From Pontederia crassipes (lineage: Eukaryota; Streptophyta; Magnoliopsida; Commelinales; Pontederiaceae): DNA of 64,000 nt. Below, piece after piece: positions 13,101 to 52,430 of the stretch. Each line of letters opens with the position of its first letter. The stretch's first letter is position 1. A program made the position numbers and the translations under genes. The stretch is from positions 45,783,696-45,847,695 of the forward strand of contig CM060188.1 of assembly GCA_030549335.1 (NCBI GenBank), written 5' to 3'. The notes under the pieces are model-generated. The model was not told where the DNA came from and did no database searches. It worked only from the letters and a program-made list of their open reading frames with translations.

Positions 13101-14670
13101 TTAGCTGCAGCCTTCGCTGCTCCTCCACTGGAGGTACACCAATCCGGCGAGGTAGTGCGTGTACGCCCCGGCGATCACCAGGACGTGGAACAGCTGGTGG
13201 CTGTGCCCGACGAGATCGAACCTCCCCGGCATCCACGCCTCCGGGACCCTCGTCGCGTAGACCGCCACGCCGAGGCCGTAGAAGGCCCCCATCAGCAGCT
13301 CGTACCCCGTCGAGACGATGGCCTCCGGCCGGTCGCCGTACGCGATCACTTTGTGCATTATGGGCACCACCCCGGACACGGCCATGCAGAAGAAGAGGCC
13401 GGCCCTCGCCGGCCGGAACTCCGGCGTCTGGAAGACCGGCACCAGCGACACGGCGACCGCCGCGGCCCCGAAGGCCGTGATGAAGCCCATGTACAGGTCG
13501 CGGTACCAGGGTTCGCACATGAAGGAGTAGTAGACCAGGGGGCAGAAGGACGTCACGATGAGCGCCGTGATGCCGGCGTAGTCCAACCGCAGCATCACGT
13601 ACGCCGTCGTCGCCGAGTGGCAGGAGACCAGGTGGCAGACGCTGCTCGTCAGGAGGCAGAACATGGAGCCGCACAGGAAAGCGAAGAACGGCCAGCGAGC
13701 CACCGACGCCAGCGCCGGCTTCTTCTCCACCACCACCGCCGCCGGATCCATCACCAGGTTGGACGTCGCGTCCTTCTCCTCCGCCCCATTCTGCTGCTGA
13801 ACAGAGTTAATCGAAGAACATGAATTTGCTACATGTCATTATCTGTCTGCAAATTAATTTACAGCGCGGAGACAAAATTTGCAGCATTAAACTGACAGGA
13901 TCAACTCCAGTAAATTTGGACTGGACCAGACTGGCAGACAATAAATTCACCTGCAGAACACATGGGGGTGACAGGTTGCCGCGCTGTGACAAGAAGATGT
14001 CCGGTAAACAGCTCATGAGAACGTCACCTAATTGCAAATCCGATGACGATGGCACTGGTGGCGAGATGTACTGCTCCTCCTCCAACTCGTTTGCAACATC
14101 TGCATCTGATCCAGAAAAGGTGATCAGAGGAACGGCCGCTTCGGATCTGGTTAGGTTCTTCGGCATCCATGGCGCCGCAGCAGGGATCGCATTGGCCGAG
14201 GCAGCGCCGGCAGCGTCCCTCGGCATCACCATTGCAGTGAGCACAGTCAGAGAGAGGAAGATGAGAAATCCGATCAGGTGCCTGCAGAAATCAAATCAAT
14301 TTTGCTTGCATTCCAATTTAGATGCAGGGAGGACTACTGAATTTGATGAATGCTATGTTGCAACTCACGTCCAGACGTTGAGGGTCTCGTTGTGGATTGA
14401 GAAGATGCTGAGGAGGGTCTCCTTCATCGGCCACTCGCAGCGGTAGTGGCGGAAGATGAACTCATTGTCCTTCAAGTACTCCGGCAGAGCGTCGAACTCG
14501 ACCAGCTCGCACTTTTTCTCGACATTCTCCCCGCCGTCCTTCTTCTCGTCATTGCCCGTTCTCTCCTGCCCCGCAGTGCCGCCGCCGACGGGGCTTTGGA
14601 CAAAGCTGCATGTGGCCAGCTCAAAGGTGACAGATCCTGCAGCGGCGCCTGCAGGATCCTGGAAGCACAT
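13101..14670 (-). CDS. HHP: Heptahelical transmembrane protein (PAQR/adiponectin-receptor-like), three exons
   Basis: Exons are 14670-14369, 14281-13951 and 13796-13101, joined by GT-AG introns (donors GTGAGTTG and GTGAATTT, acceptors CTGCAG and TTCAG), giving 442 residues. The N-terminal part has the family signature LPEYLKDNEFIFRHYR followed by SIFSIHNETLNVWTHLIGF, where TM1 begins. The last exon encodes the remaining membrane helices. It includes an SxxxH motif in TM2 (S262, H266), [13 protein letters not shown], and the C-terminal HxxxH (H411, H415) in [16 protein letters not shown]. In animal adiponectin receptors the equivalent histidines bind zinc. Plant HHPs are membrane proteins linked to hormone, sugar and stress responses, and their biochemical activity is unsettled. 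The start at 14670 gives an N-terminus matching its paralog in scale. An upstream in-frame start at 14739 would cross a likely acceptor near 14716, so a leader intron is possible. The second intron is absent from the paralog at 24507. Confidence 0.88.
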
Positions 14671-24506: not shown

Positions 24507-25854
24507 ATGGTGCTCGCCAGCCTTTTCGCCGCGCCTGCGCTCGAGCCGTCGCCGGAGAAGGCGGCCGCCTTCGGCGCCGCTGCCGACGCACCCGAAGTGC
24601 AGTTTCTTATCAGCCCCTTGACGGATGATATTATGAACACGAACAGCGGAAGAAAGATCAATGGAAGAAATTGTAATTGTCGCCATGAAGAAGAAATAGA
24701 AGAAAAGTGCAGTGGCGGCAAGCTGCGGCTGGTGGACTACTACTCCTTGCCGGAGTTCTTGAAGCACAACGAGTTCATCGTCAACTACTACCGATCTGAG
24801 TGGTCGTTGAAGGACTCGTTCCTCAGCGCCTTCTCCATCCACAACGAGACCATCAACGTCTGGACGTACGTAATAAATTTAATTAGTTGCATGCATGCAT
24901 ATTGCTACTGCTCGCATTAATCGTTCACATGGTTGCTTAATCGTGTCTATATATATTGACCCATTACATTCACAACTCAGGCACTTGATCGGATTCTTCA
25001 TCTTCCTCACTCTTACCGCCTACGCCGTGACGATGGTTCCGATGGATTCCGGCGCGACACCACCCCAGGCGCCACTGCGCCATCTGCCCGAGCTGATGAA
25101 TTATTCTTCCTCTGCCATGTCCTATTACGAAGGCCGTGAGACAGACGCTTTGGCTTCGTTGTCGGCGCAGGCGAACCTGAGTAGCACTGCTGCTACTACT
25201 GAGGCCGGGCCGGAACCAGACACGGCGCCGCCGCAACTGTCGACGCAGGCCGCAGCCAGCAGGTGGCCCTTCTACACCTATCTCTGCGGCGCCATGTTTT
25301 GCCTGCTAATGAGCAGCGCGTGCCATCTCCTCTCATGCCACTCCGAGCGCACATGCTACGTCATGCTCCGCCTGGACTACGCCGGCATCACCGCCCTCAT
25401 CGTCACCTCCTTCTACCCCCTCGTCTACTACTCCTTCGCGTGCGATCCTTTCTACCGGGTCCTCTACCTCAGCTTCATCAGCGCCTTCGGCGCCGCCGCG
25501 GTGCTGGTCTCCCTCGTCCCGGCGTTCGAGACGCCGGAGCTCCGCGTGGCGAGGGCGGCGCTGTTCGCGTGCATGGCCCTGTCGGGGCTGGTGCCCATAG
25601 TGCACAAGACGATGCTGTTCGGGGACCGGCCGGAGGCGGTCCTGACCACCGGGTACGAGGTAGTGATGGGAGCCTTCTACGCCCTGGGCGCGGTGGTGTA
25701 CGCGGCGAGGGTGCCGGAGCGGTGGATGCCCGGAAAGTTCGACCTCGCCGGACACAGTCACCAGCTGTTCCACGTCTTGGTCATCGCCGGGGCGTACGCC
25801 CACTACCTGGCTGCTCTGGTGTACCTCCGGTGGAGAGACGTCGAAGGATGCTAA
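24507..25854 (+). CDS. HHP: Heptahelical transmembrane protein (PAQR/adiponectin-receptor-like), two exons
   Basis: Exon 1 is 24507-24865 and exon 2 is 24981-25854, joined by a 115-bp GT-AG intron (donor GTACGTAA, acceptor AACTCAG), giving 410 residues. The N-terminal cytosolic part ends in the signature [19 protein letters not shown] and [11 protein letters not shown]. The intron interrupts the Thr codon (phase 2) exactly as in the paralog at 13101. HLIGF opens TM1. A low-conservation loop of about 100 residues follows, then TM2 with SxxxH (S231, H235), [13 protein letters not shown], and the C-terminal HxxxH (H380, H384) in [16 protein letters not shown]. The His positions match the zinc site of adiponectin receptors. 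The C-terminal half is highly similar to the minus-strand gene, while the N-terminus and loop have diverged. The two genes are transcribed away from each other. The role in hormone or stress signalling is known for the family and not shown here. Confidence 0.9.
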
Positions 25855-44079: not shown

Positions 44080-44205
44080 TCGTGACATATGGCACTATTT
44101 GGCTGAAGCGAACCATGCATCTTACTATCGATTCAACTATTCACAATGCTATCCATCGAAGCACACTGGCTCATATATGCAATGTTCGTAGGGTGCACCC
44201 TAATA
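44080..44205 (+). repeat. Direct repeat, copy 1, followed by (TA)n
   Basis: The segment (GGCTGAAGCGAACCATGCAT, CACAATGCTATCCATCGAAG, TGCAATGTT) recurs at about 44770-44900 in the same orientation. A palindrome AGGGTGCACCCT and a CA/TA microsatellite (44206-44258) follow. Confidence 0.6.
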
Positions 44206-44220
44206 TTCCTCACACACACA

Positions 44221-44261
<41 letters not shown>

Positions 44262-44898: not shown

Positions 44899-44900
<2 letters not shown>
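44770..44900 (+). repeat. Direct repeat, copy 2, followed by (TA)n(TG)n
   Basis: Partner of 44080-44205: AGTTGAAGTGAACCACTCAT, CACAATCCTATCCGTCGACG, TGCAATGTT, then a TA/TG/TATG microsatellite to 44975 that abuts the Mutator-like element's left end. Confidence 0.6.
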
Positions 44901-44960
<60 letters not shown>

Positions 44961-44975
44961 ATATGTATATATATG

Positions 44976-45476
44976 AGGTATATTAGGCACATATTTGTGT
45001 ATGCACCCTACAATCCCAACATCTCGACCGTTTGAACTGGATGTGTGGATGTGATTTAATGATTTCAACAGGCGTGGTTCAATGCATGGATTCAATCCCT
45101 CTATGAGCAGTTCTAGTGGATATACTGATTCATTGGAAAGGACCTTAGGGCATATCTTGATAATAAAAAAATAAGATCGGAACCAGTCCCTTCCCAACCC
45201 CCAGTGCTGCTTCTATCTCTGCTTGGCAGATCTCAATCAACAAAGAAAGCAGGTGTCTCGTGATGTTGAAGAAACCCCTTGTGCCACTGCTTCCCAGCCC
45301 CTTGTCATGCATTGCTACTTCTTTCCCTATAGTTGCTTCTGGTAGATCCAATATGTTGCCAGCCGCATTATAAACCTGTGATGTTGAAGAAGGTTCTTTA
45401 TTTTTTTTACTATAGATATCTCCATTGATACTGCCAGATTTATTTCTTTTTTGCTTGGCCCCTAAGTTTTCTTCTC
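44976..45476 (+). repeat. Left terminal inverted repeat of the Mutator-like element
   Basis: Begins AGGTATATTA. It aligns in reverse complement with 50090-50644, the inner limit being set by TTGCTTGGCCCC at about 45451-45462. Confidence 0.8.
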
Positions 45477-46005
45477 AAAACATATTACAAGTATTTTCTA
45501 GGGCACATTTTCTCGTTCTTTTTATCCTTTCTATGTTCCCTCCATATTACCTCCCTCTTTATCATGATCTAGAAGCTATGTGAAAACTTCTTTATTTGCA
45601 TATGCTAGCAGATTATTAGCATACGAATTTGAAAGCATTGCTAGATCTAAATTTCGAAGCCCGTTGGATCTCCACAACAAGCAAGAGGGCTGCTAGTAAT
45701 CTCCTAATTGTGCTACTTTCTTTTGTGACTATAGGCGTAAGTAGAACATATTTACTTGTTATCAAGGGACTAAGGAAATATAAGACTAGGTATTATTTCT
45801 ATATAAGACTACGTATTGTTTCTTGTCATAGCTATATCATCATTGCTAATCTCCTAATCGTGCTACTTGATTTTGCTACTTGTTGTGTTTCTTTTTTTAA
45901 AACATGAGAACTGCTTTAGGGAAATGAAACACATGACTAGGTAGTAACATATAAATTATAAGGCATGTGAGCTGATATTAACTTATAGTTTCTAATATAA
46001 TTATC

Positions 46006-46408
46006 ATGTCCAAGATTAACTCGACAACCATACCTCTATGCAATTGTCAAGAAGAAGCGGTAATCAAGACATCATGGATCGAAGATAATCTGGGTCGAAG
46101 GTTTTATAGTTGTCATAATTATGAAGTAAGCATTTCAGTCTATGCACATTATATCTTATTTGTTTTTTTACAGTTATGCCTAATTATTTTTCACTATATA
46201 TTGTTTATCTTTTTAGCGCAATAGCAGTTGTCAATATTTTGAATGGTTGGATCCGGATGTTGACTCTCAAAACATAATGGTTATTAATGGCTTGCTGAGC
46301 AAGATGAAACACGAGAATGGGAGGAGAAAATTTGAAGCTATTCTTGAAAATGAAAGAACCATATTTGAAGCTATTATGAAGACGAAAGAAGACAATTTGA
46401 AGTTATGA
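46006..46408 (+). CDS. GRF-type zinc-finger ORF inside the Mutator-like element, two exons
   Basis: Exon 1 is 46006-46125 and exon 2 is 46217-46408, joined by a 91-bp intron (donor GAA|GTAAGC, acceptor TTTTTAG). This gives 103 residues without a stop or frameshift. Residues 12-50 match the GRF zinc finger: CNC near the start, TSWIEDNLGRRFYSC in the middle, then CQYFEWLD, so the Cx1C...C...C ligand pattern and the GRxFysC core are present. The C-terminal half is charged and probably helical, with repeated KFEAILENE/TIFEAIMKTK units. GRF fingers bind single-stranded nucleic acid in DNA repair proteins such as APE2 and NEIL3. Its role here is unknown. It lies just inside the left TIR and points toward the transposase, as mudrB does toward mudrA in MuDR. 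The reading depends on the intron: without splicing the finger is broken. Confidence 0.7.
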
Positions 46409-46792
46409 AGATGAAAAGAAAAGATTTGAGGCTATTCTTGAGGTTGAAAGAAGATGTAGATTGTATAGGAACATCACCATATGCTTGTTGGTAGTATTAC
46501 TATTATACATTTGAAAATAAATATCAGACATTGTACATGTATTTTTCTGCATGTGTAACAAAAATTAAGCATTCGTACCACCTGGAATGTGTTGAAATTA
46601 ATTAAGTTGCCATTTTGCAAATTGTTGACTACTTATTAACATTTCTATACAAGTCACATTTTGGTTTTCAACACCATGCCTTTGTTTAAGGATTCTTAAC
46701 TTCTTAATTTCTTAGTCTCCACCTCTCTTCATAATTGGGTCATTATTGTGACATGCATGATGTCATCTCCAACATGTAAACTTTGATAGATG

Positions 46793-46940
46793 TTGCAATA
46801 ACTCGAACATAATCAAATAAATGACAATAGCACCAATAGTTGCAATAGCTCGAATATAATCAAATAAGTGACAATAGCACCAACAACTGCAATAACTCCA
46901 ACATAATCAAATAAATGACAATAACACCAACTACTGCAAT
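46793..46940. repeat. Tandem repeat, 47-bp unit, about 3.1 copies
   Basis: The unit TTGCAATAACTCGAACATAA plus TCAAATAAATGACAATAGCA recurs at 46793, 46840 and 46887 with few changes. Confidence 0.9.
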
Positions 46941-47067
46941 TTAATGACTTCAAAAGGCGTTCTTTAGTGCAAAGTTGGCAGCTAGTCTACAATTACAATT
47001 GCTACTAGTCTACATGTACAAAGTTAGCAACAACAATTGCAACTTTGATACTCATCTACAAGTGCGT

Positions 47068-47192
47068 CTACATGAAAAAAGCTTCAATTTTGCTGCATGT
47101 CTACAAGAAAAAAGTTCCAATTTTGCTACTCATCTACATGAAAAAAGTTTCAATTTGTTGTTTGTCTACATGAAAAAAAACTTCAATTTCTG
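47068..47192. repeat. Tandem repeat, about 31-36 bp unit, four copies
   Basis: The unit GTCTACATGAAAAAAGCTTC plus AATTTTGCT recurs four times with variable length. It lies between the GRF ORF and the transposase tail. Confidence 0.8.
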
Positions 47193-47574
47193 AGCAATCT
47201 GATGCATGAGGAGACTGGATGAAAAAACTTTCTAGTCTATCACTTGATGAAATGTCAGTCATTTCATCAGTTGAAAAATAAGAGCATGAAAAAAATAAGT
47301 ATAAATTGGACAACAAACTCCATTCACATAAGCTATGAAGGCAATTTCACTCACATTCGTCCTCCTCCTCATTTTCCTTTCGTTCACCTGCATCGTCTTC
47401 ATCATACTCCTCCGTATAGCGATAAATGTTTTTAACTTTTCCTTTTATCTTCTTCTCTTCATCCTTTGCCTTACATTACCGATGAGACATTGAACCATTA
47501 GTTTAGATTTAACATAAGTCATAAAATAAGATAAAAGTTAAGCATACAACATAAGGAAAAAATGAAATACGATC

Positions 47575-49815
47575 ACATAGGCATTGCCTTAGCTACTTGA
47601 CAAGTAGACTTATAGTGACCAGTTTTGCCATATCCTCTTCTTAACCTCTGTTTGTGACATGGAAATTTCAATATCAGCTTTAATTCTTTGTATTCTTTTA
47701 GGTCTTCCTTTCGACTTCACACAAGTTGGATCGTTTACAATGACCTCTAATTCCTGAGAATTTAGATTTAAAGCCATTGGTGCAGTCACTAATTCACATG
47801 TACCCACAACTTTAAAAACTTCAAACTTTTCAAGAACCTCATTAAGAATAGACATTCCAAAATCTAGAAGAATATCAAAACGCAAACCAAAATTGTTAAC
47901 CCTCCATATATTCCTTCGTCAAGTCCACTTTCTTAGATTAGTCATGTCCTATTCATTTATGGAGATACTTGCATCGTTGTGAACTAGGCGGGCCTTTAAA
48001 TATCAAGCGTCAATCGTCCATCGGTGAAGAATATATTGTTCAGGTAAGTTTGTTATCCCTTTCTTATTGAGAATATGTAAGATATGGACACAAAGTACTC
48101 CTTGTTCAACCTTCTTACATGAACAAGTTGTTGAAACTTTTTCAAGTTTGCTAAATTTCACAAAGTTTTCTTGGTTGTCAATCTCCATTGAGTACACAGT
48201 TTACAACTTGACAAGAAGCTTTCATTTTTTTTTTGTGCTGAAAATCATTGATAGCTTTGAACGCTTTTTGGAATACGAAAAATATCCTTTATGTATAAAC
48301 CATTCCTGCATGGGCTTCTAACAATTTTTTTAATGTAAGGCAAGGGTGGATTTGAGATTTTTGAAATCTTCACATTTTTCTACTTTGCGACGATAATGAA
48401 GGGCTTTATCATATTGCACCACAAACTCTATTAAAGAGGTGTGAGAATTTACAAAACCATAAAAAAAAGAATTAGTCCTTTTAGATCTTTGTGAAGATGA
48501 CATGCCTGCAAAGAAAATATCACTAAAATAAATGGAAATCCAAAACTGTCGCTTATGAAACATATTTTCTGCCTAGTGATCATTTGGTATGGCATAAGCC
48601 TGTTTCAATTCTGCCCATTTTTTTTGCATTCTTTAATGGTAGATGATTCATATATCAATTTCTTAAAGTCCTTCATGAAGTTACCATGTAAAGATAGTTT
48701 GCATGTGTTAATCAACACAATTTTTTAAGATATGCCAAAATCTCTGCCTAGTATTTGGAAAAACATTACGAATAACATTTCCCATGACAATATCTTGATT
48801 TGTAATAATACATATTAGTTCCTTACCTCTCATACATTCTAACCAAATCTCGAATAGCCAAATAAATGTATCTTTCGTCTCATTAGCAAGCAGAGTACAT
48901 CCAAATATAATAAATTTTTTGTAGTGATTAACTCCCGCAAAAGGTGCGAATGGCATGCAAAACTTATTAGTTCTATATGTGGTGTCAAAAACCACAACGT
49001 CTTCAAACGTGGAGTAATTGTTTCATCCATTGTCATTTCGAAACAAAAGCTGACATCGTCAACTTTCTTTTGCTTGAAATAAGCAATCACACTCTTGCAT
49101 TTTTTAACAATGTTATTCTGTCTTTTTGCATTCAAATGGTTTATGTAGTCCTGCATTGTAACTTATGGAACAACTAAAAAATTAAGAACTTTGGCAATAT
49201 TAAAAGGATGCATCCCTACTCCATGAAGTTGTGTAATAAGATTTCTAGATGTATCACATAGATTAATAGGTGATCGTATTCATCCAACCTTCAAAAGAGT
49301 GGCTAACAAATGGTTATGTTCTTCGTGAAACCTTTTCACGGCCCACTTTTTTCTTGTGTTTCACAAATAAATAAGTGTGCTTCACAGCCAATCCTTACTT
49401 CCCTCCTCTGTTTCACATCCTTTCAATCATTTCGATTAAGATCCTTATGAGCTTCCTTGGAGCAAACAAATATTCTACTAGAAAACTTCCTTTTTGCATT
49501 TCCTGCATTTGCCTTTAGGAAAATAGACTTTCGTATGGAAAAACCGATGGTTCTAGCATATAAATTATAAAATTTGTATGAATCTTCATCTGATTCAAAT
49601 ATCATTCCAATGAATGATCTAACATCAACACCATGTTGTTCTTGGTAAAATCTACTCTATCTTGTATTGTATTATTACTGACATCTTCAATATCATGAGT
49701 TAGATTAGTTTCATCTTGGTGGCATCCTGTATCATTGCTCATGTCTGATGATAGTGAGAAAAAAAAATCAGACTGCAATATTAAATAGTTAGGAAAAAAC
49801 AAAGAAAGGAAATAC
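47575..49815 (-). pseudogene. Decayed FAR1/MULE transposase
   Basis: The minus strand, in shifting frames, shows the full FAR1-type order. An acidic N-terminal region is followed by the FAR1 DNA-binding domain (IGMIFESDEDSYKFYNLYAR, GFSIRKS, FVCSKE; 49630-49430). The MULE catalytic domain follows (VFDTTYRTNKFCMPFAPFAG, LFGYSRFG/WLFEIWLECM, NQDIVMGNVIRNVFPNTRQR; 48995-48715), with its first Asp in FDTTY and second in NQD. Next is the SWIM zinc finger CSCKKVEQGVLCVH (48140-48080). A tail GRPKRIQRIK and a CCHC-like GKTGHYKSTCQ (about 47620) end it. At least three frameshifts and several stops (for example after LNRND near 49423) make it non-functional. FAR1 domestication gave the FHY3/FAR1 light-signalling factors, but the long TIRs show this is a transposon copy. 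Confidence 0.85.
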
Positions 49816-50089
49816 AATCAACGGCTATGACATAATAACATGCATAAATAATGGGCTCACACATTCAACTTATTATGAAATAACAAACCTATCTTTCGAA
49901 GGAAAAAGATATACTACAACATCAAAAGAAACATAATAAACTACAATATCGAAAGAAACATAATAAGTATCAGCCAACAGTGCAACATTAAACCAACATA
50001 AGTTTTATGTCCACTTTGTTCTAACATATGCAGAGATCTATTGCAAAAAAAAATAGAGAAACAAATGAAAAGAAACAAGAGACAAGAGG

Positions 50090-50644
50090 AGATTACTTGG
50101 GGCCAAGCAAAAAAACTGGATGGAAGAGAGTTCTAACAGCACCAATGTAGAAGTCACACCAAGCGCTCGACTGGCAGCACCAATGGAAAAGTCAGCTCTC
50201 GACTCACAGTAGAGAGAAAGAGGAATTAGAATGCAAAGGGGGGTGGGAGGAAGGGATGGACGACGTACCTTTTATTTTCTAGCACCACCCAATGGATGCA
50301 ACAATAGGGAAAGAAGCAACAACACAGGACAAGGGACTGGAAGCAGCAGCATAGGGGGTTTCTTCAACGTCACGAGACACTAGGGTTTCTTCAAGCATAG
50401 AGAAAGAAGCAGGGGGCTGGGAGGGGGCTGTTCCCGATCTATTCACCTGCTTTCTTTGTTGATCGATATCTGCCAGGCATAGAGAGAGAAGCAGGGGAAG
50501 GGTTGGTTCCTGATCTTTTTTTTTATCAAGATCTGCCCTAAGGTCCTTTCCAATGAATCGCTCACAGAGGGATTGAAATCCACACGTCCAGATCGAACGG
50601 TCGAAATGCTGGGATTGCAGGGTGCATACACAAATAATATACCT
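50090..50644 (-). repeat. Right terminal inverted repeat of the Mutator-like element
   Basis: Reverse complement partner of 44976-45476. It is slightly longer because of internal insertions, including a local duplication of CTGCTTCTyTCTCTATGC. Confidence 0.8.
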
Positions 50645-50655
50645 ATATATATATG

Positions 50656-52430
50656 TGTGTGTATGTGTTTATAATAAAGTTGTAACAATCACAACTTTCA
50701 TAAAAAATTTAAAACTTGAATTTTGTTGACGTCAGCCAAAATAGGTAACCGTTCCACAGAACAGGTGCCGAAAATCGCAACTGACATGAAAATAGTTGAT
50801 CGCTCCACCGATAGATCGAAACTCATATCAAGTGCCCGGTGGCTAAATGACAGAATTTGAAATGAAGATCAATTATATTTTTTTTACTATAATGGTCCGA
50901 ATTTGGAGTAACTCTCCTTACCTACGATCTTAGGGAGTTATGGACGAGATCCCCCACACCCTACCCCTTTTTGAATTCTCTCCTACCCATTTTCTCTGCT
51001 CTCTCTCATTCTATCTCTCCACCATTTTTCTGGTGCTTCTCTTCCTTTTGGTCTTGACCAGAGGGCTTAGAGGAGACATTTGCAAGTGCAATTCACAAGG
51101 AGAACTAGGGAGGAAGGAGGAGAAGAGGTTAGGGTCGACCAAGTGCAAGAAGAATCAAATAAAATGACAAAAAGATGTGTTTTGGGGATTAGGTCATGGG
51201 TAGATTTTATGAGGGATTTGCATGTTTTAAGGACTGTGTTAGGCTTATGATCCATGCTAGTGTGAGTAGTAATCATGCCTTATTATTTTTTGGAGATATA
51301 TGATATGATTTCTCTAATTTGTTGTTATGGTCGAATGATGTAGGTTAGATCATATGACATGTTCTACTTAAAGGTTGATAGGAGTATTTATATATGTTTT
51401 AGGTAGTGAATGTTTTAGGTAGTGAGAAGATGGATTCCTGTAAAAGACCATGATATGGCATATGAAATTAAGCTTATTGTGATGCATGAATACAGTAGGA
51501 TTTTTTAATCGATTTTGATACCATCGTGCATGACGAAAATGATATGATTGTGACAAGATTTGTCCTATGAATCATGTTATTTGTTAGGAATAAGTTTGCA
51601 TATGTTTATATTTATGTTTTGGATGAATAATTGGAAACATAATGACATAAGGTTCTATTAATGGTTAATTGAGCCTCGGATCAGATGTTCAATTCTTCTC
51701 GATTGAAGATAGCGACACTCAAATCAAATGAGTGATCCATGAATTGAACGCTCAGTCTAAAATGTCGAGACGTAAACATGATCAAATAGTTGACTAGGAT
51801 GCCTTTACGGTCGACCGAGAATTATGGACTCGGAAAAGGTTTCATGCCCTAGATAGATCGAATGATTGCTCAAAATTTTGGATGCTTGAAACTCTCGGCC
51901 GAGAGTTTGCAGTTTTGCCCAAGGGATATTAACGATTCGACTATCGCGCATTTGATCCGTACTCGACCCCCGGAAAGACCGATCGATGAACCCAAACATA
52001 GTAGACAATCATTGAAGTCATGACAGACCAGACACCCATCCCTACCCAACGATGATCGAAGAATCCTGATGAAATGGGTGTCCACTCCACCTAGCGAACG
52101 ATCGACAAATCATGACAAAATGGATGACCGCTCGAATTAGCGGGCATTTGATTCATGGACAAAGGATGAATATGGCTTTAATTAACAATTATGATTTAAT
52201 TAGTTTCTGTCCATCTGATTGTCGTTACTGATCCCTCATAAACATATGACTCTTTAATGCTTTGATTGATCCATATGATCAAAAGATAAGTTGATAGTTA
52301 AGAAGATAAAAGATAAAAATCTAAATTTATCACTTGCCTACATAAATGAAAGGTTATCGGTCTTGTGTGAGACATCTCCAGTGGAGATTATAAACCTTGT
52401 GTGAGACACTCCACGTTCTTTAAGGATGCT
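50656..52430. other. Interior of the CACTA-like element, no gene recognised
   Basis: Low-complexity and moderately AT-rich DNA. Short ORFs (for example 50940-51167) have no recognisable domain. A GGTCGACCGAGA / CTCGGCCGAGAG-rich stretch lies at 51800-52140. Confidence 0.4.

Follow-up and report, generated by a model that had tools for sequence, protein, structure and literature searches.

A GRF zinc-ribbon gene as a regular partner of the transposase in a FAR1-type lineage of Mutator-like elements in Pontederia crassipes

We analysed a stretch of 64,000 nucleotides from Pontederia crassipes (GenBank assembly GCA_030549335.1, contig CM060188.1, positions 45,783,696 to 45,847,695, forward strand), hereafter the window. 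It harbours a Mutator-like element (MULE) in which a FAR1-MULE-SWIM transposase gene and a spliced gene for a small GRF zinc-ribbon protein face each other between terminal inverted repeats (TIRs). With moderate confidence, we take this element to be a dead copy of a two-gene DNA transposon, the GRF protein of which would have been a transposition helper with a role like that of mudrB in maize MuDR. The two genes are paired in many copies, in one order and at a similar spacing; the GRF gene lies within the inverted arms of several subfamilies, is inherited together with the transposase and is under coding constraint. About a hundred places in the genome show this pairing, so that the GRF gene looks like a genuine working part of the element.

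Results

Genome-wide pairing of the transposase and GRF genes

We searched the host assembly, 1.13 Gb in 43 contigs, with the transposases of the window copy and of a distant copy (L075), which gave 275 distinct places, and with the GRF genes of the window, L075 and L074, which gave 347 merged GRF genes. Each search scored the best 150 of 1,965-2,578 first-look candidates, chance ones included. A listed GRF gene was found within 8 kb at at least 96 of the 275 transposase places, a lower bound because each search scored 150 candidates. The convergent order that a preceding reading of the window, made from the letters alone (hereafter the sequence-only reading), had described is kept elsewhere: 96 of 98 transposase-GRF pairs, at 95 places, are convergent, with the GRF gene downstream on the other strand. 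The median spacing of these convergent pairs is 2934 bp, and 88 of the 96 are 2-4 kb apart. The two remaining pairs are an upstream GRF gene beside an already paired element (on C4) and a pair on the same strand (on C5). Among the ten best matches of each transposase query (query included), 8 and 7 are paired, and the paired fraction tends to drop with distance from the query, a necessary consequence of scoring 150 candidates per search.

Both families are repetitive, as the numbers of first-look candidates indicate, so that GRF genes might simply be abundant, with their closeness to MULEs a matter of accident or of nested insertion. However, about 1.3 paired places were expected by chance against the 96 observed, and four shifts of the GRF coordinates (50-200 kb) gave 0-3. 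Strand and side, moreover, agree in 96 of the 98 pairs. Chance neighbourhood was therefore rejected on the pairing counts and the shifts, and we consider it hardly credible.

We also looked from the GRF side. Loci L014-L043 contain 23 distinct GRF genes, of which 22 (all but C13:25799681) were examined together with 1.5 kb on either side. Transposase sequence was present within this distance of 17 of the 22, always on the opposite strand and convergent, and one further locus (C21) has a transposase about 3 kb away, giving 18 of 22 in total. No transposase was found within reach of the other four, which include an intronless gene (L035). The sequence-only reading had itself set capture of a single-copy host gene against its proposal; this is ruled out by the 347 listed GRF genes and by the transposase beside 18 of the 22 examined.

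Some GRF loci have an unusual structure. In L035 (G000:C15:18711499) the exon junction is closed and the gene is one open frame, preceded by a stretch that by eye resembles a Ty3-type retroelement protease, while Pfam finds the GRF domain only; it is perhaps a retroposed or captured GRF copy. The transposase place C8:42415128 has two GRF genes of a tandem array, in which four GRF genes lie about 4.22 kb apart on one strand (G000:C8:42399434-42412465), with this related transposase on the other, an apparent tandem multiplication of part of an element. At G000:C6:71434628-71437128, four matches to GRF exon 1 follow each other on one strand at about 797 bp, and their open frames measure 143-162 amino acids (aa). 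They form a compact tandem series of GRF sequences that may have lost its mobility.

The element in the window

The element measures 5.67 kb (44977-50643 of the window). Its features are the following (window coordinates, strand).

44899..44976, no strand: (TA)n/(TG)n microsatellite on the left, into which the element presumably inserted (sequence; TA flanks in 6 of 8 copies)
44977..45340, plus: left TIR (inverted-arm match; end fixed against sister copies L009 and L011)
46006..46125, plus: GRF exon 1, coding for the first zinc-ribbon half (spliced product matches Pfam PF06839)
46126..46216, plus: GRF intron, GT-AG, phase 0 (GT donor at the same position in 22 of 26 aligned rows)
46217..46408, plus: GRF exon 2, cut short by a premature stop; second zinc-ribbon half and coiled-coil-like start
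46401..46514, plus: displaced GRF end in another frame, coiled-coil-like part and hydrophobic tail (corresponds to the intact C-terminus of L015 and L030)
47582..49696, minus: broken FAR1-MULE-SWIM transposase (Pfam domains; homology across frames)
47573-47716, minus: zinc-knuckle-like end of the transposase (by eye)
48711..49022, minus: MULE catalytic domain (Pfam PF10551, 1.2e-26)
50295..50643, minus: right TIR (inverted-arm match; outer part present at 21 genomic ends, both ends of the window element included)
50644..50665, no strand: TA/TG microsatellite, right-hand flank (sequence)

The outer ends, which are approximate and were placed by comparison with sister copies, agree within 1 base with the span 44976-50644 given by the sequence-only reading. 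The inverted arms it had seen are real, though their length is about 0.35 kb (364 bp on the left, 349 bp on the right; matching blocks 72-95% identical) and not 0.5 kb; in the sister copies L009, L010 and L011 the TIRs reach 0.41-0.50 kb. The element has a MULE DDE transposase domain and TIRs that enclose both genes, two of the marks of a MULE. The target-site duplication (8-11 bp expected of MULEs) is unreadable because insertion into (TA)n masks it. TA flanks were seen in 6 of 8 copies inspected, namely the window copy, L009, L010, L011, L074 and L076. The group inserts into TA repeats as MuTAnT does (PMC4486113), with or without the GRF gene. The GRF protein had been considered as the cause of this targeting, an idea that was dropped because L076 lacks the gene and still sits in TA repeats.

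The predicted transposase lies on the minus strand and was confirmed by three Pfam domains: FAR1 (28.4 bits, cut-off 28.1), MULE (1.2e-26) and SWIM (21.8 bits, cut-off 19.6). Because its homology, running from 49696 to 47582, is interrupted by at least five frame changes, this transposase is dead. In L074 and L075, PF10551 (MULE) was found at 1.9e-32 and 5.9e-30 and FAR1 at 3.6e-20 and 1.2e-23, respectively; SWIM stays under its cut-off of 19.6 there (15.4 and 17.3 bits), as do the CCHC matches. Judged by domain layout, a FAR1 N-terminus and a SWIM or CCHC C-terminus, the transposase is Jittery-like.

The GRF gene lies on the plus strand, convergent with the transposase, and starts just within the opposite TIR. 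The spliced zinc-finger open reading frame (ORF) expected there was borne out by the GT-AG phase-0 intron and by a Zn_ribbon_GRF match of 2.2e-11 in the spliced product. Like the transposase it is broken: a premature stop is followed by the C-terminal part in a different frame.

Copies collected by their TIRs

A 171-base inner TIR piece gave 10 genome matches and an 87-base outer piece 21. The 21 outer ends were sorted by eye into 14 loci, which were matched to gene places in the same way; both ends are present at 7 loci, spaced 4.3-6.0 kb. In this census, which is independent of the genes, a transposase was present at 12 of the 14 loci and a convergent GRF gene at 11 of those 12. In the twelfth (C3:25249389-25254477, partly fetched), the alignment to its relatives skips from the TIR to just beyond their GRF gene, and because it jumps across the place of the gene, we conclude that the GRF gene was deleted there. 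Around two lone TIR ends, neither gene was among the listed ones within 20 kb. The sequence-only reading had proposed to collect copies in this way and regarded absence of the GRF ORF from other copies as evidence against an accessory gene. Copies elsewhere do not generally lack the gene, which is present at 11 of the 12 transposase-bearing TIR loci and at 96 or more of the 275 transposase places.

In addition, six copies with a long transposase frame were chosen without regard to the GRF gene; they represent six of the seven longest open frames (C2:39317666 was left out). L074, L075 and L077 harbour a convergent GRF gene within their own, differing inverted arms, and in L079 GRF exon 2 is visible at the edge of the fetched stretch. 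Altogether, the GRF gene is enclosed by inverted arms in the window copy, L009, L010, L011, L074, L075 and L077. L075 combines an uninterrupted transposase frame of 755 aa with an intact GRF gene.

The GRF protein in intact copies

The intact GRF protein has 109-148 aa. It consists of an N-terminal GRF zinc ribbon, usually a coiled-coil-like middle rich in Arg and Glu (judged by eye from the Arg/Glu-rich repeat where it is long) and a C-terminal hydrophobic, transmembrane-like helix. In eight aligned sequences, Cys 14, 36 and 45 (L015 numbering) are invariant, Cys 12 is present in seven, and the R-R-F of the GRF signature in all. The intron splits the zinc ribbon at a constant position, with the GT donor kept in most aligned rows (22/26). 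In all eight sequences of the hydrophobicity test, which took in the displaced tail of the window copy and exon 2 of L079 and left out L074, the most hydrophobic 15-residue segment is the C-terminal one (mean 2.2-3.4, Kyte-Doolittle).

GRF alone among the Pfam families passes its cut-off in the second gene, with Zn_ribbon_GRF scores of 44.1, 41.5 and 32.6 bits (cut-off 25.9). Among solved structures, the GRF repeats of NEIL3 come closest, with chains matched at 1.9e-6 and 2.9e-7, followed by weak matches to the rRNA methyltransferase ZCCHC4 (0.016) and an AP lyase (0.11). The element protein therefore belongs, by Pfam and structure matches, to the zinc-ribbon family of the GRF fingers in repair proteins. 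Among these, APE2 also carries a GRF zinc finger. To our knowledge, the GRF domains of repair enzymes are not combined with a coiled coil and a hydrophobic tail. The sequence-only reading had described GRF fingers as normally binding single-stranded nucleic acid; for NEIL3, binding of GRF to single strands has been reported (PMC9266487).

Selection on the GRF gene and shared descent with the transposase

The ratio of nonsynonymous to synonymous changes (dN/dS) in the GRF ORF, which the sequence-only reading had suggested as a test, has a median of 0.25 between subfamilies (8-40% divergence; 213 non-independent pairs). L020 and a second reading of L012 were left out of this set, and the rows of L047, L075 and L077 are partly misaligned toward the 3′ end. 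In 12 non-overlapping pairs, differences at codon positions 1, 2 and 3 numbered 222, 178 and 279.

GRF distances were then compared with transposase distances. Over 2.3 kb around the catalytic domain, the Mantel correlation was 0.695 for 14 pairs, reached in 8 of 10000 permutations; the distant pairs C9 and C2b were left out, C13c was added, and the distances of C7 and C2 are partly inflated. The main groups are common to the GRF and transposase trees.

Discussion

We read the GRF gene as an authentic second gene of a MULE lineage that targets TA microsatellites, and its product is probably a transposition helper analogous to mudrB. The earlier suggestion of an accessory gene in this lineage is supported, as neither of the two findings it named against itself was made and the median dN/dS between subfamilies is low.

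Several observations weigh against this view. Two of the six long-ORF copies, L076 and L078, have no GRF gene within about 4.3 kb downstream. L076 (G000:C13:46405200-46412200) is 4.65 kb long, with good TIRs, TA-microsatellite flanks, a long transposase frame and no detectable GRF gene, a layout close to the published single-ORF one. Because it has TIRs and TA flanks without the gene, the GRF gene is not strictly needed for insertion or TA targeting. The longest transposase frame, of 758 aa, is that of L074, where the GRF frame stays open across the zinc ribbon and the hydrophobic tail is out of frame. A membrane tail is itself unexpected for a nuclear transposition factor. The two closest GRF pairs have dN/dS values of 0.73 and 1.28, which is near neutral, and seven close pairs pooled (of eight listed; L039/L033 was skipped) diverge by 0.061 in the intron, 0.059 at codon positions 1 and 2 and 0.074 at position 3. 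Congruence was first tested on the 104-aa catalytic domain, with a weaker result (r 0.53, 124 of 10000, 15 pairs) that dropped to r 0.25 (1812 of 10000) without three distant pairs; the 2.3-kb comparison replaced this test. Finally, AutoMuTAnT of Medicago and Jittery have been described with one ORF (PMC4486113). As for the near-neutral closest pairs, they are as expected for dead copies from a constrained lineage, of which they are the usual mark.

Some of these points would suit a passenger gene, taken from the host by an ancestral element in Pack-MULE style and carried along by the copies without a role. Gene capture is frequent in MULEs, and a GRF-domain gene inside an Oryza TNR12/MuDR element was interpreted as such a Pack-MULE capture (PMC3503983); copies without GRF exist (L076, L078 and the C3 deletion), and the closest copies diverge near-neutrally. 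However, a passenger should show no coding constraint, in conflict with the median dN/dS of 0.25 between subfamilies. The single order in 96 of 98 pairs and the 2-4 kb spacing in 88 of the 96 convergent ones speak against it as well, and so do the presence of GRF in subfamilies with different TIRs, its co-inheritance with the transposase and the intact gene of L075 beside an uninterrupted transposase frame. Unlike a Pack-MULE, which has a host gene fragment and no transposase of its own, the element keeps its own transposase, which is convergent with GRF at 95 places and lies beside 18 of the 22 GRF genes examined. We consider passenger capture unlikely.

The main rival, which we regard as improbable though somewhat less so, is a factor against silencing or other host defences, comparable to vanC of the Arabidopsis element Hiun. 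Such a protein would counter silencing and act outside the cut-and-paste chemistry. In favour of this, vanC is known in another MULE (PMC6446971), the GRF ribbon might bind RNA, as the weak match to ZCCHC4 (0.016) would allow, and an anchor facing the endoplasmic reticulum (ER) would suit a role at the RNA level.

If the GRF protein is a transposition helper, the two proteins could share the work as follows. The FAR1-MULE-SWIM DDE transposase would cut and join. The GRF ribbon may bind single-stranded or forked DNA arising in excision, integration or gap repair, or else the RNA of the element. The coiled coil would make the protein oligomeric, and through the hydrophobic tail it would be held at a membrane, for which the nuclear envelope or ER is the most plausible candidate. 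The GRF gene would then serve a step that the transposase alone does not do, like mudrB of MuDR, which is thought to serve integration. More tentatively, and with odds that we place somewhat below even, a whole lineage of plant FAR1-type MULEs might be a two-protein machine in which a tail-anchored GRF ribbon keeps single-stranded intermediates of transposition or repair at a membrane, which would probably be that of the nuclear envelope. In that case, a good part of the large plant family of small GRF-type proteins would be encoded by transposons and not by host genes.

In MuDR, mudrA and mudrB converge from the two TIRs. The GRF-bearing element resembles MuDR in that its transposase faces a second gene, encoded on the opposite strand, and differs from it in the GRF ribbon and hydrophobic tail of this second gene and in its FAR1-type transposase. 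We know of no description of mudrB as a GRF protein, which by description sets it apart from the GRF gene. The maize element has been reported to carry the transposase gene mudrA and mudrB in opposite directions, with mudrB necessary for new insertions (PMC9168764, PMC6446971). With the Jittery group and AutoMuTAnT the element shares, by description, the FAR1 N-terminus and the SWIM or CCHC C-terminus, and with AutoMuTAnT, the transposase of which is Jittery-like, also the location in TA microsatellites (PMC4486113). In contrast to their single ORF (the plant Jittery sub-group, group 36, is tabulated with 1 ORF in Table 1 of PMC6446971), a regular convergent GRF gene is present here at at least 95 of 275 places.

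Second genes in MULEs are already known: mudrB, vanB/vanC, mutB, ULP1, PMD and ORFR (PMC6446971, PMC2528002, PMC9168764), and ULP genes have also been described from Jittery-like families in grapevine and melon (PMC2528002, PMC6446971). MULEs with ULP1, vanB, vanC or PMD are similar in having additional genes, sometimes in reverse orientation, which belong, however, to other protein families. Many Abermu MULEs of grasses carry an extra antisense ORF (ORFR) without reported similarity to MURB; they are closer to MuDR, and GRF is absent from the main text of that paper (PMC9168764). In the literature searched (titles and abstract openings, with Repbase and subscription journals outside the search), we found none that describes a GRF gene as a regular component of MULEs.

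Two further observations concern the surroundings of the element in the window. A second (TA)n tract at 44190-44260, about 0.7 kb to its left, adjoins a short palindrome with GTGCACCCTA, which is similar to the element end GTATGCACCCT and possibly is the end of another microsatellite-inserted element. Farther away, two HlyIII (haemolysin-III-related) genes of the same family lie about 11 kb apart on opposite strands (13101-13835, minus; 24883-25854, plus).

FAR1-type MULEs have been described as transposase-only, and here a FAR1-type lineage has a regular second gene. The nucleic-acid partners of GRF ribbons are known from repair proteins, and the protein ends in a membrane-type helix, so that the role of a second MULE gene becomes testable. 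Mapping studies in plants list small GRF-type genes, some of which may belong to transposons and should then be masked when genomes are annotated. The pineapple Ac-mMITEs are, by description, likewise Mutator-type and located in (TA)n and differ in being non-coding miniature inverted-repeat transposable elements (MITEs), for which an autonomous partner was sought and not found (PMC8449440). For MITEs in TA microsatellites such as these, the GRF-bearing lineage is a candidate type of autonomous partner.

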